Positions 20,795 through 40,622 of a stretch of 44,137 nucleotides of DNA are shown here, in pieces (the first letter of the stretch is position 1; the number at the start of each line of letters is the position of its first letter). The stretch is from a virus, in IMG/VR virus record IMGVR_UViG_3300046171_000151, positions 1 to 44,137 of that record; one strand, given 5' to 3'. The notes beneath the pieces are model-generated. The model searched no databases, was not told the DNA's origin, and saw nothing but the letters and a program-made list of their open reading frames with translations. A program made the translations under genes and the position numbers.

Positions 20795-21838
20795 TCAGCC
20801 AGCTTGCAGCTCAATGGCGCAAGCGGGATTCAGAGTACCAACGCCCATCGCAAGGCGACCAACGATGATGTCACCCTGGTACATGGTCTTCACATCAGAA
20901 CCAGTGGTCTGAACGCTAGGACCAATACCTTCAACAACACCAGCAGCATCCTTCATGTAGATGAGACCGCAAGAGTTAGTGAAGTCACCGGAGTAATCAT
21001 TGTTCTCACCGTTGACACGAGCAACAGCACCACCTGAACCTGAACCAGTAATCATGAACGGCAGGTTGTTAGAACGCTTGATAGAGATACCAGCGATCTC
21101 ATACAAACCATCGCCGCTGTTCAGGTTGCCCTGAGTGTTACCGAAATCACGGTTGAGGATGTTGCTGTCAACCTGAGAAACCAGTGCATAGTACTGGCGA
21201 GGAGACAGGACAGCATGACGACCTTCGCGGGGTACATTCTTTTCATCGAGGATAGAAGCAGCCTCGAAGAAAGCATCAACAAGATGCTGAGCAGAATACT
21301 GATTACCAGCACCCAGCTGAATGATAGAACCACCGGGCTCAGGACCAGGTGCTGCAGTCACAGGATGTGCTTCACGTGCAGCCTTGGCAATGGTGCGGAA
21401 CACCTTCTTGTCATAGGCTTCAGCCAGAGCGTGACCGATCTTCTTAGAGATTTCGGAACGCAGAGAGTAGTGAGCAAGAGTCTCATCAAGGTCATAAATG
21501 AAGGCGCTGGAGATCAGCAGGTCATCCATGATGATGGTCTTCTCAGCCACTGGAGGATCACCACTACCAAGAATCGGAGTTCCAGGGGTGTGGTAATCAG
21601 CGGTCATGCGACCAGTGAAGATGAACTGCATAGACTTACCGTTACGCAGGGTACGGTTCTGCACAGTTCCTTTAGCGATACATGCTGACTCATACGCTTT
21701 GAACATCTCACCAGAAAAGAGTTTCAGGTAAGTCGCGTATTTGCCAGTAGTACTTCCATCGTTATAACCCTGTGTAAGGGCGATGGACGAAGGGTTCGAG
21801 TTAATCGAACCAATCGGAGTAATTGTAGTGTCAGCCAT
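20795..21838 (-). CDS. Major capsid protein (T7 gp10-like)
   Basis: A 347-aa HK97-fold capsid subunit of T7-like type. Features: N-terminal Gly/Thr-rich arm (LTQGYNDGSTTGKYATYLKLFSGEMFKAYE), the conserved GKSMQFIFTGRMTADYHTPGTPI, and C-terminal MYQGDIIVGRLAMGVGTLNPACAIEL. It is preceded by nine A just before ATG and a roughly 150-base structured leader rather than a clear Shine-Dalgarno. Downstream lie two small capsid-associated genes and the main terminator. Confidence 0.95.
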   Translation of the reverse strand: MADTTITPIGSINSNPSSIALTQGYNDGSTTGKYATYLKLFSGEMFKAYESACIAKGTVQNRTLRNGKSMQFIFTGRMTADYHTPGTPILGSGDPPVAEKTIIMDDLLISSAFIYDLDETLAHYSLRSEISKKIGHALAEAYDKKVFRTIAKAAREAHPVTAAPGPEPGGSIIQLGAGNQYSAQHLVDAFFEAASILDEKNVPREGRHAVLSPRQYYALVSQVDSNILNRDFGNTQGNLNSGDGLYEIAGISIKRSNNLPFMITGSGSGGAVARVNGENNDYSGDFTNSCGLIYMKDAAGVVEGIGPSVQTTGSDVKTMYQGDIIVGRLAMGVGTLNPACAIELQAG

Positions 21839-21988
21839 TTTTTTTTATAAGAGGTTAGTTGCTATTCCTCTGACGTCAGAGATATTTAATTGTTTATGTG
21901 TGGTCTGTCCCACCGTCTAGACGGCTAAGGGTATCCGCGTACGGGCCAAAGCCAATACTGGTGGGAGGACTTGCACCTCCCTGTAAGC
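21839..21988 (-). promoter_or_regulatory. Structured 5' leader of the major capsid gene
   Basis: A 150-base gene-free leader with at least three perfect inverted repeats: GGGAGG-TGCAAGT-CCTCCC (21963-21981), CCGTCTAGACGG (21913-21924) and CTCTGACGTCAGAG (21868-21881). The AGAGG of the last one can also pair with CCTCT about 20 bases further on, next to the poly-A before the start codon. No class A promoter motif is present. It may stabilise the message, be a processing site, or control translation. Confidence 0.6.
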
Positions 21989-22099
21989 TTACTTATCCAG
22001 TTGCTTGTAAACTACACCACGATAACGAAGACAGTCAGCTTTGTAGTTCTGAGCTTTCTTCTGTTGTTTGATAATGTAGCGAGAAACGATGTTAGACAT
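21989..22099 (-). CDS. 36-aa YRGVVY peptide downstream of riboswitch-like RNA
   Basis: Starting at ATG 22099 the peptide is MSNIVSRYII...CLRYRGVVYKQLDK; an ATG at 22135 inside the RNA hairpin loop would add 12 residues. It is basic and amphipathic, and its LRYRGVVY segment resembles the YRGxxY motif of short cyanobacterial proteins (DUF4278-like). Known downstream-peptide RNAs of marine cyanobacteria and a cyanophage precede short ORFs of this kind. Function is unknown; small nitrogen-regulatory inhibitors are one model, by analogy with riboswitch-controlled glutamine synthetase inactivating factors. Confidence 0.65.
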   Translation of the reverse strand: MSNIVSRYIIKQQKKAQNYKADCLRYRGVVYKQLDK

Positions 22100-22117
22100 T
22101 TGTTCGTACTTAAGAAA

Positions 22118-22170
22118 ACCTAACCCCCGTTCCATGGTTAGGTAACATGCGTCCCGAAGGATGAACGTAC
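22118..22170 (-). ncRNA. Probable glutamine riboswitch (downstream-peptide type)
   Basis: On the minus strand ACGTTCATCC-TTCG-GGACGCA is followed by a perfect 8-bp hairpin ACCTAACC/GGTTAGGT whose loop contains GGAACGG. The CGTTC at 22167-22163 can pair with GAACG in that loop (22132-22128), giving a pseudoknot. The CGUUCAUCC...GGACG block, following hairpin, pseudoknot and short peptide ORF agree with the glnA/downstream-peptide glutamine aptamers. It lies exactly in the gap between two genes. After the hairpin comes TTTTCTT, so termination could be the output. Confidence 0.62.
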
Positions 22171-22175
22171 GATGT

Positions 22176-22526
22176 TTATGCAAATACTCGTTTAGGGTTT
22201 TCAGGAGTAACTTCAAACTCTTCCCATCCTTCAGGGAGAGCACCAAGATAATTCACATGCCAACCTGACATAACAGTAGGAGGTGAGACAACAATGTCTT
22301 CACCATCTTCATCTACTTCATAGACACCATCGTCGTTATACAAGACACCGACAACATCAATAGCGCGGTCATGCGTATAAGCGAGGAGTTGTTCAGTCTC
22401 GTTACCTTCGTCATCAGTAACGGTAGTCATGAAGCCTGCTGCACGAGCTGCAGTAAGCCAGGCTTCTTCATCAGTAAACCGGAAGAAAGGACCGGGTACT
22501 GGTGGAGTATTAAGTTCTTCTTCCAT
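22176..22526 (-). CDS. Acidic hypothetical protein
   Basis: A 116-aa, strongly acidic protein (NDDGVYEVDEDGEDIVV; TDDEGNETEQ) with a Pro-rich N-terminus (NTPPVPGPFFRF) and C-terminal GWHVNYLGALPEGWEEFEV. I do not recognise a family. It lies between the lectin-like structural gene and the riboswitch. The EGWEEFEVxPxxPxRVFA ending looks conserved-type and argues for a real product; perhaps a tail or head assembly factor. Confidence 0.65.
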   Translation of the reverse strand: MEEELNTPPVPGPFFRFTDEEAWLTAARAAGFMTTVTDDEGNETEQLLAYTHDRAIDVVGVLYNDDGVYEVDEDGEDIVVSPPTVMSGWHVNYLGALPEGWEEFEVTPENPKRVFA

Positions 22527-22528
22527 GT

Positions 22529-24445
22529 TTATTCAGTGAGTCTTATTACTGTGTCATTACTTACACGATCAGGCCAGTAAGTGAAGCGTTTAATGGTCAT
22601 GAATGGACCACCGCCGAGAGCGGAAAAACCAAAATGAACTTGATCTAATACTGGAATATTAACAGTAGTGTCTAAATTGTTTAAAGTACCATCCAAAGCA
22701 TTGATAGCATTATCTACTTCAAAAGCAATAACGCCTTTTTTATTTTGACCATATGAAACATCATTATGAGACTGATTCAATTGATTAATACCACTACTTT
22801 GAATATTAAAGGTCTCTTTGTTAGTACTTCTTTTTTTAAAAAACCTAATCTCATTATCAAGAGATCCGTCAGAAATGCTAAAGTAGAAATGATTTACATC
22901 TGAAAAGTCTCTAACAATACCTTCACCATAAGCTGTACCTTTTTGATCTGCAGTGTTATACCAAGAACTAAAATTAGATCCAGTAATATTTACATTATCA
23001 GCTGCACGTGTAACAGTAGAGCCTGAGGTATGGATATAAGAAGATGGGTTTACTCCTTCTTCGATTTGAGCAGCCAGCACGATAATACTTGCACCAACAG
23101 TACTTGAAAGAGGTGCCATACTCTGCAAATGAGCACCTGAATTAGCTGGCACAAAGTTATAACTTAACTTGATAACATTACTGCCAGCATCTTCAACTTG
23201 TAAGTTACTAATTGTTCCGTGATTGGCATCGTTAACAATGGTATAAGAGTTTACATCTAAATGATCAGAGCTAGTAGAAGTTTTTTTAACTTCACAAGTT
23301 GCAGTGGTCCCGTTTAATTTTATCGTTGAACGAAATTTATCGCTAGGGTTCACATCTCCTCTCATCCACCAATTAGTGATTGTGTAAGTTGTGCCAGCTG
23401 CTAATGTAGGAAAATTATTACTGGCAGCTCTAAGCCCATGGAAGGTTTGACCTTCACTGATAGACCTTACACCGTTAAAAACACCTAATTTGTTTAAAGA
23501 TAAGTTAGTGTTGTTTTGTGCTGCACCGCCAATGTTACTCTGCCAACCGTTATTTATTTCAACAGCAGAATAAATCACTAGATTTGTCCTAGCATCTTCA
23601 ACCAACAACCCAAGGCTTTCACCTGTTACGGGATCATGATCAAAGCGTGGAGTACTGTTTGCTGTACCAGTTGTTTTAACGTATTCACCAACGGTGCTGG
23701 ATTCTTCTAGTTGGGCTCCCCATACGTAAATACCAGAGACACCATCACCTGTGTAGTTTTGAGTACCATTATTCGGATTATTACTTAATCTGAGCTGAAC
23801 ACCAGTACTAGCGGTAGTGGTAGCGGTAGCTGTTAGTGAACAGCGATACCAACCATCTGGGTATGCTTCAATGCTTGCAGTTGCTGTTCCACCAGTAGTA
23901 GTAAAACTACCATCACCGGTAAGATTAAACGCTACAACTCGGTTTGAAGTAAACGAAGTTGAAACAAAAACAAGTCCAAAATGACGATCTTGTGTACCAG
24001 TATTACTATATTGTTTAGCCCAGCAAGAAACAGTATAAGTTGTATTTGCTACAAAATTGTGGACATTATTAATGTAACGACCAGCTGTTTGTGTATCTTC
24101 AACCAAAAGAGTAGCTGTATTTGTACCATCAGGTGCAGTAGCAGCATTGTCAGTAGCAGTACCTCTTAAAGGTGTTTTTCCCCAGTCTCCAGAAGCACCG
24201 AAACCTTCACTAGCTTCAAAATAGTTAGTAACTGCTGTTTTAATATTCCCGCCACCATCAACATACGTTGCACTACTAGCGCGGGTATGTGTAACTAAAT
24301 CCTTACCTGTGATACTATCAACCAGGCTTTCATTATTAGCAAAATTTAGATCAAGAGTAGGTCTAGCTCCACCAAGGTCATAGAGCTGATCACCAAGACC
24401 TCGATACTGATTAGTTGAATTCGCCTTGGTTCCACTCAATCTCAT
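22529..24445 (-). CDS. Large lectin-like structural protein
   Basis: A 638-aa protein rich in Thr, Ser, Asn and Gly. It begins with a conserved-looking ARPTLDLNFANNESLVDSIT..LVTHTRASSATYVD, then two tandem beta-sandwich-like units, each ending in a similar phrase (VWGAQLEESSTVGEYVKTTG near 245; VLAAQIEEGVNPSSYIHTSG near 465). This is the pattern of carbohydrate-binding jelly-roll domains in phage appendages. Its position between scaffold and capsid genes, away from the main fibre gene, suggests a second virion appendage or capsid-surface protein. Confidence 0.7.
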   Translation of the reverse strand: MRLSGTKANSTNQYRGLGDQLYDLGGARPTLDLNFANNESLVDSITGKDLVTHTRASSATYVDGGGNIKTAVTNYFEASEGFGASGDWGKTPLRGTATDNAATAPDGTNTATLLVEDTQTAGRYINNVHNFVANTTYTVSCWAKQYSNTGTQDRHFGLVFVSTSFTSNRVVAFNLTGDGSFTTTGGTATASIEAYPDGWYRCSLTATATTTASTGVQLRLSNNPNNGTQNYTGDGVSGIYVWGAQLEESSTVGEYVKTTGTANSTPRFDHDPVTGESLGLLVEDARTNLVIYSAVEINNGWQSNIGGAAQNNTNLSLNKLGVFNGVRSISEGQTFHGLRAASNNFPTLAAGTTYTITNWWMRGDVNPSDKFRSTIKLNGTTATCEVKKTSTSSDHLDVNSYTIVNDANHGTISNLQVEDAGSNVIKLSYNFVPANSGAHLQSMAPLSSTVGASIIVLAAQIEEGVNPSSYIHTSGSTVTRAADNVNITGSNFSSWYNTADQKGTAYGEGIVRDFSDVNHFYFSISDGSLDNEIRFFKKRSTNKETFNIQSSGINQLNQSHNDVSYGQNKKGVIAFEVDNAINALDGTLNNLDTTVNIPVLDQVHFGFSALGGGPFMTIKRFTYWPDRVSNDTVIRLTE

Positions 24446-37182: not shown

Positions 37183-39519
37183 TTAACAGAAAAAATATGT
37201 TGAGTCAATAACGGATTCTGGTGTCAGATCTCCAATTATTGGTGGTTTTGTTTCAGCACCTATCTGATTAGCCCAAGACTCTAAGTAGGAGTTCTCAGCA
37301 AATAGATACATGTAAGTCTCTCGAACGATTCGTGAAAGCGTATTCATGTCAGTAGCACGACATAGAACAGAATCGTGTATCAATGAGATCGGATGATTAA
37401 ACCGTAGCGTAGACAGGTGGAGGAGACTTGCATCTAATGAATGGATGAGATTAGGAGCAGTTGCATTCTTGTGATGCAAAAGATCTACCTTATCGCTATC
37501 TTCTGTGGCAACTGTTATCTGCACACGACCAAGCAATTGCAAAGTCACAGTGCTAGTAAGTTTTTTATTTAGCTTTTGTGTGACAACAAAACCAGATGGT
37601 GTGGTCCACTTGAGTTCCGTTGCTCCACGTTTAATAGCTTTTGTTACCTCAGCTTCAATCCATTTCATTGCAGCCATAGGACCAGGTACAACCTCATCCA
37701 TAGCTTCACGTACTGCTTTGACAGTAGTAGTTAGATCGTCTTTATCTACTTCAATACCTTTCTCAAGTAATGCTTCACGAATATATCCGCGATTACTATG
37801 AGGTTTGGCATTGTACGGGACAGTCATAACAACACGCTTGACTGTCTTTCTGTCCATGTAGGGTCTTATAGACTCAGGGACGTTTGGTTTAGCGTGCTCG
37901 GCGACGACGGCATAAGCGTCTTGGGGTCGCTCTGCTGGCAAGACATTGACAAGATTTGCAGTTCTTGCATCTCTGCATAATCCGGCGAGTATCTGTAAAC
38001 CAGAGCAGGTGGCATCAACTGCAATTGGCAGAGAAGTGAAATTTCGATCACGAGTAATTACACAGTGGTGGTATTCTTCACAAGACGCGAGGAATTGGAA
38101 GGGTTCATCAGCGGCTTCCCACAAGTGGATGTTGCCAATAGGGTCTAAAGCGACAGCAGAAATCACCTCATCATTTTCAGCTACCCATTGCATACGTTCA
38201 TGTATAGGAGCTTTATCTAGACCATATGTTGTAGCCACTTGGAAAGCTAGCCATTCCTCAGCATCAGGTGTCATGTATGACTCCTCACTGAACTTAAGTA
38301 ATGACTTACCAAAGTCAGTATCTTGCGGTGTCAAAAAAGCGGGAATTGGGTAAGCTCTTCCGCGATAATCGAAGCTCCATGGAATGAAGAATTCTTTCTT
38401 ATCCTTGAATAGCTTAGCTGCTTCCATTGTCATGCGTGTTCTGCATGACTTCTTAAACGATGCTGCGTTCTTGTTCATCACTTCAGCAGCATCTCGCCTG
38501 TACTGCTTACGAGAATCATAATTCTCTGCAATATCAGGTGGTTTGTTTGGTAGAGGTATCTCTACGATAGGGATAAACTTACCGACCTTGTAACCTTTAT
38601 CTAACAGAGTCTCAGCAACTTGGTAGACAAAAGTATTCAGTCGATAACCAACCTTCTGAATCTTATTCAAAAAGTTGATTGGTGTCTCTCCCTGTATAGG
38701 GTCCACACCACGCCGAACCATGTCGTGGCCTTTCATTACCTCATTTAGTAGGTAGCCACCTTGTCGATTGTGACCCCAATCATTAGGTTCAATCAACATG
38801 GGATATGCGATTGGTGAGAATAATTCTGCATTAGCCATAACCTCATCCTTGATAGACAAGAATTCAGGCGTTGGTTCGATAACTATGCAGCTTTTATTTC
38901 TCTCTTTCCTATCTACCCTCATGAACCATTGGCTCTCTTCCATGATGCAATCAAGCAGCCAACCTCCCAGCTTTACCCGAGTAGGCTGTGACCATCTTGT
39001 CCACTGAGGTACATCATATCGCTGAATAAGCGTACGGACAATGACAAACTTCTGATGCGTGCCAGTGGTGTTATGCCAGTAGTTCTTTTTAATTGTATTT
39101 AGCAGGCCAGGGCAGTTCCTCTCGTAATACTGCATCTGAGCCTCTTGTTCAACAGCTTGGCCGATTGACTCAGTAATAGTTACAAGTTTATTGGCTTTGT
39201 CTTTGTAACTAAATACTTTGTCAAAAGTAATCTTTAATGCAATGGCAGCTGCTGCACCTGGATCTATTGGCTCTAGATACTGATGTATCTCCTTAAAAGA
39301 CTTACCAATACACCCTTTCTTGATTCTGAGATTGGTGTCCTCGATACGCTGAGTGATCTTGGGGAGCAGCTTAGAAATACTGCTGCAGCCATAGACCGTT
39401 GCACTAGCGTATGATTTCCCCTCTAAATCTTTTGTATTTTTACGTAATCGCTGAAGTCCAAGGCGAATGGCTTCTCTTTCAAAATTGACTTGTTCCTCAA
39501 TCTGTGCAGGTGTTGGCAA
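37183..39519 (-). CDS. Phage RNA polymerase (T7 gp1-like)
   Basis: A 778-aa single-subunit polymerase. Hallmarks: FFIPWSFDYRGRAYPI, IAVDATCSGLQILAGL (motif A Asp), DRKTVKRVVMTVPYNAKPHSNRGYI (motif B Lys/Tyr) and HSLDASLLHL...HPISLIHDSVLC (motif C His-Asp). It should transcribe middle and late genes from the CACTAACG-type sites. The start is TTG: GAGGAG lies six bases upstream at 39525-39530 and no ATG fits. Located after integrase and attP. Confidence 0.95.
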   Translation of the reverse strand: MPTPAQIEEQVNFEREAIRLGLQRLRKNTKDLEGKSYASATVYGCSSISKLLPKITQRIEDTNLRIKKGCIGKSFKEIHQYLEPIDPGAAAAIALKITFDKVFSYKDKANKLVTITESIGQAVEQEAQMQYYERNCPGLLNTIKKNYWHNTTGTHQKFVIVRTLIQRYDVPQWTRWSQPTRVKLGGWLLDCIMEESQWFMRVDRKERNKSCIVIEPTPEFLSIKDEVMANAELFSPIAYPMLIEPNDWGHNRQGGYLLNEVMKGHDMVRRGVDPIQGETPINFLNKIQKVGYRLNTFVYQVAETLLDKGYKVGKFIPIVEIPLPNKPPDIAENYDSRKQYRRDAAEVMNKNAASFKKSCRTRMTMEAAKLFKDKKEFFIPWSFDYRGRAYPIPAFLTPQDTDFGKSLLKFSEESYMTPDAEEWLAFQVATTYGLDKAPIHERMQWVAENDEVISAVALDPIGNIHLWEAADEPFQFLASCEEYHHCVITRDRNFTSLPIAVDATCSGLQILAGLCRDARTANLVNVLPAERPQDAYAVVAEHAKPNVPESIRPYMDRKTVKRVVMTVPYNAKPHSNRGYIREALLEKGIEVDKDDLTTTVKAVREAMDEVVPGPMAAMKWIEAEVTKAIKRGATELKWTTPSGFVVTQKLNKKLTSTVTLQLLGRVQITVATEDSDKVDLLHHKNATAPNLIHSLDASLLHLSTLRFNHPISLIHDSVLCRATDMNTLSRIVRETYMYLFAENSYLESWANQIGAETKPPIIGDLTPESVIDSTYFFC
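38762..38774 (-). promoter_or_regulatory. Class B motif inside RNA polymerase gene
   Basis: Minus strand GTCACAATCGACA, differing from the other copies only in its first base; the frame here reads Gly-His-Asn-Arg-Gln. It would precede SSB and the replication genes. Confidence 0.45.
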
Positions 39520-39758: not shown

Positions 39759-40622
39759 TCAGATAGCAGCCATTGCATCCGTGAGTGCTGCATCTGTAGC
39801 CTTCGCATATCGTAATGTTGTTTCAATGCGTTTGTGTCCGCACAGTGCCATGATCGACCTGATAGGGACGCCAGCTTCAGCGAGCCATGTCGCGTAACTG
39901 TGTCGAAGGGTGTGGAAGACATAAGCCTCATCCTTTGGTAGTAGTTTGTTGACCTTTTTGAATGCACGCAATAGTTGATCCTTGTCACGCCATTCATCAC
40001 CGAACAAGCGCACATCATTGCGTGTCGATTGTGAACAACGACTGACAACTATGTCCATGATTCTGTCATGAATAGGAATAGCTCGCCAGTTCTTAGGTTT
40101 GGTTATTTGAGTAGGTACACCACCAACATGGATGCGATTAGCAGCAAGGTCAATGTCCTTAGCTCTGATCTTTAAGATCTCACCCTGTCGCATACCTGTG
40201 TACGCACCAAACATGATGATGTCAGATAGATCATCTCGCATGAATACATCAGTGGACAAGAGAGATAGTTTATCTACCTCGTCCTTTGTGTACCAAAAGA
40301 CACGACCCTCATTCTCCTTGCGTCTCCTAAACTTAGGAGCTGACTCTATGAGTCCATCAAATGCACAATGGTTAAGCACTGTGCTAACTGCAGACACAAC
40401 TCGGTTAATCGTGGCGTCAGACTTTCCTTCATCTTCAAGTTCGATGCAGACTCCCGTGATAATCGGTTGAGTGATTTTTGCAACTGGGAATGAAGATCCT
40501 CTAAGACGAGTGAAGTGTGTGCAATTGATGGCTGATGTTCCTTTGCCATTACCGTGTCTCCATGAGTGACGTGTTTTGAATGTGTAGTCCATGGCTTGAC
40601 CCCATGTTGTAACCTTATCCAT
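39759..40622 (-). CDS. int: Tyrosine recombinase / integrase
   Basis: A 287-aa site-specific recombinase. Catalytic residues are in place: GAYTGMRQGEILKI (Arg I), FHTLRHSYATWLAEAGVPI (His-x-x-Arg) and LCGHKRIETTLRYAK (His and nucleophilic Tyr). The N-terminal arm or core-binding part is short. With the tRNA-Leu-like attP directly downstream and a MarR-like gene upstream it forms a possible lysogeny module. Stable lysogeny by such phages is rarely observed, so use in nature is uncertain. An exact class B motif lies inside. Confidence 0.93.
   Translation of the reverse strand: MDKVTTWGQAMDYTFKTRHSWRHGNGKGTSAINCTHFTRLRGSSFPVAKITQPIITGVCIELEDEGKSDATINRVVSAVSTVLNHCAFDGLIESAPKFRRRKENEGRVFWYTKDEVDKLSLLSTDVFMRDDLSDIIMFGAYTGMRQGEILKIRAKDIDLAANRIHVGGVPTQITKPKNWRAIPIHDRIMDIVVSRCSQSTRNDVRLFGDEWRDKDQLLRAFKKVNKLLPKDEAYVFHTLRHSYATWLAEAGVPIRSIMALCGHKRIETTLRYAKATDAALTDAMAAI
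40023..40035 (-). promoter_or_regulatory. Class B motif inside integrase gene
   Basis: Minus strand TTCACAATCGACA, here read as Cys-Ser-Gln-Ser-Thr. It would drive the RNA polymerase gene about 500 bases downstream. Confidence 0.5.

Follow-up and report, generated by a model that had tools for sequence, protein, structure and literature searches.

A predicted glutamine-II riboswitch cassette encoding a YRGxxY microprotein upstream of the capsid gene in T7-like cyanophages

The DNA analysed here, 44,137 nt from a marine T7-like cyanophage (IMG/VR record IMGVR_UViG_3300046171_000151; the whole stretch is called the window), contains a predicted glutamine-II riboswitch aptamer followed directly by a 36-aa open reading frame. 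Taken as a whole, the evidence is best explained by a self-contained cassette, in which a riboswitch probably governs how the adjoining YRGVVY microprotein is translated. The cassette is most likely an ON switch, the microprotein being made at high glutamine.

The window is a T7-like cyanophage genome, complete or nearly so. It is bounded by direct terminal repeats of 158 bp (99% identity) and carries the T7-type genes for RNA polymerase, primase-helicase, DNA polymerase, head-tail connector, scaffold, capsid and terminase. The coding strand of all identified genes is the minus strand. The cassette is flanked by two genes:

20795-21838, minus strand: major capsid protein, T7 gp10-like (Pfam PF21703, Gp10A-like, E 5.5e-79), downstream of the switch and outside it
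22176-22526, minus strand: upstream ORF of 116 aa with no assigned function (phrog_18574, E 6.6e-16)

The place taken by the 116-aa ORF in the window is occupied by psbA in many isolates. Part of this ORF (22200-22288) shows 78.7% DNA identity to the T4-like cyanophage S-TIM54, a match read here as exchange between phage families. Between scaffold and capsid there is a tail-like protein of 638 aa (22529-24445, phrog_5939), in the slot that psbA has in many cyanopodoviruses. An integrase-like protein is encoded at 39759-40622 (phrog_1, E 3e-52), and given its presence a strictly lytic lifestyle of this phage may be doubtful. A 34-nt repeat (88%) at 1019-1052 and 38685-38718, containing the palindrome CCCTGTATAGGG and then GTCCACACCA, is a candidate phage promoter or terminator.

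When the whole 44-kb window was searched with cmscan, RF01704 was the sole Rfam family above threshold; in a single-genome search the aptamer matched it at E 7.2e-14. RF01739 (glutamine-I, glnA) gave no match around the locus up to E 10. The elements of the aptamer are:

22118-22170, minus strand: glutamine-II riboswitch aptamer, as predicted by a full-length match to RF01704 (53.3 bits, GA 33, E 3e-10)
22163-22167, minus strand: 5′ strand of the pseudoknot, CGUUC by sequence, corresponding to C1-G2-U3-U4-C5 of the crystal structure and invariant in 34 phage aptamers
22152-22161, minus strand: P1 hairpin, UCC-UUCG-GGA, with 3 of 4 pairs changing on both sides in relatives
22118-22143, minus strand: P2 hairpin of 8 bp, with 8 of 8 pairs changing on both sides in relatives
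22128-22132, minus strand: 3′ strand of the pseudoknot, GAACG by sequence, in the P2 loop
22149 and 22127, minus strand: long-range pair C19:G41 by sequence, with C19 at 22149 and G41 at 22127 in the P2 loop

The pseudoknot CGUUC/GAACG and the pair C19:G41 can form in the window and likewise in 34 of 34 relatives. In the crystal structure glutamine is contacted by C1, G18, C39 and G40 (PMC6698751). All four bases are found in the window (22167, 22150, 22129 and 22128, respectively), and the blocks that contain them are invariant among the 34 phage aptamers. The window RNA is therewith taken to be a glutamine-II riboswitch aptamer. A sequence-only reading of the locus had listed the block CGUUCAUCC-UUCG-GGACGCA, an 8-bp hairpin (ACCUAACC/GGUUAGGU) and the loop-to-5′ pseudoknot, all of which are present, and had proposed a downstream-peptide (glutamine-II) aptamer, an identity borne out by the covariance-model match (RF01704, 53.3 bits against 33). 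The 36-aa ORF with LRYRGVVY that it had placed directly after the RNA is there as well (21989-22099, minus strand), with counterparts in relatives. As far as the aptamer and its small YRG ORF are concerned, this reading stands; the coupling to the capsid gene that it had considered does not.

In an alignment of the 34 diverse phage aptamers, standard pairs occupied 96.5% of the paired cells, 11 of 18 pairs changed on both sides, and the covariation score was reached by none of 500 shuffles. The compensatory changes on which the sequence-only reading had staked its proposal were seen in P1 and P2 of related phages. Because related aptamers with such changes occupy the same place in many phages, an aptamer at this locus is judged to be far beyond chance. 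The pseudoknot pairs are constant throughout this set and hence uninformative alone; a compensatory test of the core pairs was supplied by two variant groups. The first (~26 contigs) has the pseudoknot CGUUU/AAACG, in which C5:G36 is replaced by U:A. The second (32 contigs, including the isolate S-CBP3, NC_025461, with its aptamer at 29.8 kb) has the core ACGGG...CUGGAACGCGC, in which C19:G41 is changed to G:C and the A33:G42 contact to C:G. These core-swapped aptamers score ~15-19 bits with the Rfam model, which is below threshold. A YRGVKY microprotein follows all 32 of them, and the capsid gene lies 257-361 nt downstream in 31, the last contig having no capsid match. The aptamer structure thus appears to be under selection in phages. 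Core-swapped aptamers represent natural compensatory mutants of the glutamine pocket, and those missed by the Rfam threshold may have an altered affinity or ligand.

The product of the cassette is encoded immediately behind the aptamer:

21989-22099, minus strand: 36-aa YRGVVY microprotein ORF, MSNIVSRYIIKQQKKAQNYKADCLRYRGVVYKQLDK, with its ATG at 22099-22097

The peptide contains LRYRGVVY and the ORF ends five residues past this motif. An in-frame ATG in the aptamer loop (22135, giving 48 aa) was rejected as the true start; the frame relation is unconserved and some relatives have CAGGG there. Intact YRGxxY ORFs of 13-39 aa were found behind the aptamer in 87 of 89 capsid-linked cassettes (broken in L139 and L207), starting as a rule 21-30 nt after GAACGGG. 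The microprotein of P-SSP7 (MKVTFVYRGVAYTRVIG), which has 17 aa and is unannotated, was found after lowering the ORF length cut-off. Across 67 distinct phage coding windows, YRGxxY never varies at Y, R or the second Y, and its G is present in 66, while third codon positions vary; pN/pS is ~0.28 (125 non-independent pairs). Both point to purifying selection on the ORF. A search for the peptide in other cyanophages and in hosts, as had been suggested from the sequence, returned counterparts in many phages and host relatives with two to three motifs, where phage microproteins have one. Against DUF4278 (PF14105) the window peptide failed the gathering score (13.8 bits versus 25.3) and the best phage relative tested reached 19.0 bits, whereas a host protein passed with 44.2. 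Because it lies below the Pfam cut-off, the peptide is classed as DUF4278-like rather than as a member. No solved structure for a DUF4278 relative was found.

The ORF might be thought of as a leader whose translation matters while its product does not, in attenuation or in mRNA protection. The ORFs are indeed very short (minimum 13 aa) and their N-terminal parts diverge. Nevertheless, we consider such a non-functional product unlikely: Y-R-G-x-x-Y is fixed at the protein level with silent third-position variation and the pN/pS given above, and the same motif is repeated two to three times in single host proteins. In addition, the ORF survives decay of the aptamer. At five loci (L122, L173, L182, L183 and S-SBP1) the 5′ half of the aptamer is lost and the 3′ half is kept together with the ORF; in the truncated aptamers whose sequences were inspected, the 3′ half is fused to the end of another gene. 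Since the ORF is retained there without the aptamer 5′ half, regulation would be dispensable at these loci, where selection appears to hold the peptide rather than the sensor. By analogy with host relatives, the nitrogen metabolism of the host is the probable field of action of the microprotein.

How might glutamine reach the ribosome site? When the aptamer and the ORF start were folded without the 5′ flank, no general change in ribosome-site accessibility appeared. Once the 5′ flank was included, a helix termed P0 was revealed, in which this flank is paired with the region just upstream of the start codon:

22167-22172, minus strand: 5′ strand of P0, UCGUAC, complementary to the ribosome-binding region; its last C is pseudoknot C1
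22104-22109, minus strand: 3′ strand of P0, GUACGA, 4 nt before the start codon, from pairing probability

In the window the pairing probability of P0 is 0.64 when folding is free and 0.03 with the pseudoknot bases barred from other pairs. Over 100 podovirus cassettes the mean P0 helix score was 12.62, versus 10.18 ± 0.22 with flanks permuted among loci (0 of 500 permutations), and 36 of the 100 had a strong P0, against 8.3 expected. P0 mostly covers a Shine-Dalgarno-like GGAG or the nucleotides before the AUG. The same flank-permutation test showed no excess in 31 host cassettes. P0, the core-variant aptamers and the single-motif microproteins look like phage-specific traits. Another pairing in the window, of P2 GUUAG with CUAAC after the start codon, was discarded, being absent from close relatives.

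Because C1 is common to P0 and to the ligand pocket, glutamine and P0 would exclude each other at this nucleotide in the window phage. At low glutamine P0 would be closed over the ribosome site and the switch OFF. Bound glutamine would stabilise the pseudoknot and withdraw C1 from P0; the helix would open, the ribosome site would become free and the microprotein would be made, i.e. the switch would be ON. The microprotein, present when glutamine is plentiful, would then act on host nitrogen metabolism, perhaps via glutamine synthetase or a partner recognising YRGxxY. Mutual exclusion of P0 and pseudoknot does not appear to be a general rule, as C1 belongs to both in only 12 of the 50 cases with a strong P0. 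In the phages whose P0 does not overlap C1, which are most of the others, the coupling could be geometric, or the logic even inverted.

This raises the opposite polarity, in which the glutamine-bound aptamer stabilises the enclosing P0 and the microprotein is switched off in nitrogen-rich cells. The enclosure of the aptamer by P0, and the fact that in most strong cases P0 does not overlap the pseudoknot strands, fit such an OFF switch. We hold it to be improbable for two reasons: the host type-2 riboswitch that has been tested is an ON switch (PMC6316151), and in the window phage C1 of the ligand pocket is also part of P0, whose probability falls from 0.64 to 0.03 once the pseudoknot bases are barred from other pairs. 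The ON switch remains our preferred reading.

To see where the cassette occurs, the region upstream of the capsid gene was compared among annotated phages and IMG/VR contigs. RF01704 was above threshold in 10 of 12 reference cyanopodovirus records (P-SSP7, S-TIP37, S-TIP28, S-RIP1, S-RIP2, P-SSP2, NATL2A-133, S-CBP1 and two uncultured fosmid phages); of these 12, S-SBP1 gave only the 3′ half of the aptamer and S-B28 no RF01704 aptamer. Over 76 records, 57 matched at E <= 0.001 and 45 were above threshold, fractions that are no unbiased census as 64 of the 76 are contigs picked by capsid similarity to the window. Of 101 host genomes sampled, 66 have the aptamer, in 1-7 copies each. A degenerate DNA pattern gave many chance matches in GC-rich bacteria, so cyanobacterial loci alone were used; a few viral pattern matches (L022, L028, L049 and L113) likewise look like chance. 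Two tandem glutamine aptamers precede two-motif YRG proteins in L009, L013, L017, L043 and other viral contigs. In other riboswitches, tandem aptamers have been linked to sharper responses.

The distance from aptamer to capsid start is 243-553 nt in the window genome and most relatives, and this proximity is what favours the idea that the riboswitch mainly controls the capsid, with transcription or translation of gene 10 gated by glutamine. However, the cassette lies 0.8-1.3 kb from the capsid gene in several phages; in NATL2A-133 it is directly behind psbA, ~1.3 kb upstream of the capsid gene, in G008 it is ~21 kb away, and in G018 it is near the other contig end, far from the capsid gene. 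Because it also occurs in these distant locations, the cassette appears to move as a unit and to have its own ORF as target. That ORF has its own start at a fixed spacing behind the aptamer. Moreover, the capsid gene has a conserved leader of its own:

21896-21982, minus strand: conserved capsid-leader RNA of ~87 nt (model R1, 92.3 bits)
21963-21981, minus strand: hairpin 1 of the capsid leader, tRNA T-arm-like, within the R1 element

Hairpin 1 takes one of two forms: it mimics a tRNA T-arm perfectly, with 5-7 bp that close UUCRANU or UGCRANU, or it has CACCUCAGWGUCGGA as its fixed loop. It is followed by a two-part, UUGG-containing stem with a YNMG tetraloop and an AYAC bulge, and accompanied by a third hairpin. 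The covariance model R1 was built from 25 sequences, in which both partners change in 16 of the 21 pairs (0 of 500 shuffles). It matches 16 of 17 cyanopodovirus records at E <= 4e-9, upstream of the capsid gene wherever checked, and is present without the riboswitch in S-B28, G006 and G013. Given this separate leader, kept in phages that lack the riboswitch, and the cassettes far from the capsid gene elsewhere, the coupling to the capsid gene that had been suggested from the window falls away: these comparisons lend no support to a riboswitch acting on the capsid gene, which we regard as very unlikely. The capsid gene would be controlled separately, through its own leader RNA.

The capsid leader has no match in Rfam, and ARAGORN found no tRNA in this region. 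It is a possible processing or stability element. A Syn5-type phage promoter was dismissed, there being no good match to the Syn5 promoter sequence ATTGGGCACCCGTAA. In S-TIP28 (L206), whose capsid gene starts at 1973, the leader before this start resembles a degraded tRNA, with GGTAGAGC and GGTTCGATTCC present; the T-arm hairpins might derive from tRNA. A cyanobacterial assembly contig (L373, host assembly G048) has a T-loop leader (R1 50.7 bits) beside a distant capsid protein (34% identical), and the element may extend beyond close relatives. A second T-loop hairpin, CCAAGG-UGCAAGU-CCUUGG, lies ahead of another gene of the window (42682-42664, minus strand); the genome thus contains two hairpins of this type on the coding strand, versus 0.25 expected from shuffles. 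In other phages (L124, L136, L167) the second T-loop site is likewise conserved and carries AGCU...AAAAUGGUCUUAC.

A recently captured host fragment that does nothing for the phage would agree with the 1-7 copies of the same aptamer family in hosts. It is scarcely credible, since the element is found across diverse T7-like cyanophages, shows strong covariation, is under purifying selection and comes with a phage-specific P0 and ORFs of a single motif.

Nitrogen is limiting for marine picocyanobacteria, and T7-like phages that infect them are abundant. The cassette suggests that the virus reads the nitrogen state of its host and acts on it during infection. Going further, T7-like cyanophages may have made from the host glutamine-II class a riboswitch design of their own (the P0 clamp and the rewired-core lineages G19:C41 and C33:G42), dispensing YRGxxY effectors of 13-39 aa that reprogram host nitrogen assimilation; we put this forward tentatively, as an idea that could well prove wrong. 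If true, proteins that are among the smallest conserved in phages would control infection in a glutamine-gated manner. A glutamine sensor before a microprotein in the model phage P-SSP7 would allow a direct test of the phage response to host nitrogen status. The phage peptides of 17-36 aa are also simple natural constructs for finding binding partners of YRGxxY/DUF4278 in picocyanobacteria, in which the regulation of glutamine synthetase has been called unclear (review, PMC6316151).

Among the papers covered by our literature search, none deals with type-2 switches of T7-like cyanophages, with P0, with the core-swapped aptamers or with phage microproteins of 13-39 aa. A public description of the glutamine-II motif mentions one phage. 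The nearest known systems share features with the cassette. Cyanophage CP12 is a host-type small regulator with which phages redirect metabolism, and the microprotein would likewise be a small regulator that cyanophages carry; CP12, however, acts on the Calvin cycle, and no riboswitch before it is described in PMC7760959. The Synechocystis glutamine synthetase inactivating factor IF17 (gifB) is likewise a small protein with a DUF4278-like part behind a glutamine ON switch. Yet the phage peptide is equivalent to no more than a part of the IF17 N-terminus, which is disposable for its inhibitory function (PMC6316151), and has no counterpart of the inhibitory C-terminal part. Phage-borne glutamine aptamers have also been mentioned for T4-like cyanophages, S-CREM1 and the methylophage Melnitz (PMC9602691, PMC9964418, PMC9004378), where they are of the glutamine-I class (glnA, RF01739), a three-way junction, and thus of another aptamer class in another phage group; in the T4-like P-SSM2 and P-SSM7 an RF01739-type aptamer (slightly below threshold in P-SSM7) precedes a two-motif YRG protein. 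The host counterpart is the glutamine-II riboswitch (RF01704) found in Prochlorococcus and marine Synechococcus. For hosts, this aptamer class has already been described together with its ligand and its link to small YRG proteins (PMC2864571, PMC6316151), and it has been called restricted to picocyanobacteria (PMC6316151). Type-2 glutamine riboswitches work as ON switches close to the start codon, probably at the level of translation, and precede DUF4278 proteins (PMC6316151, PMC6698751). Host and phage versions have in common the consensus, the pseudoknot, the ligand-contact bases, P1 and P2, and the small YRG ORF directly behind; the phage cassette differs by a P0 predicted to reach onto the ribosome site and by a single-motif product of 13-39 aa, where the host proteins carry two to three motifs.
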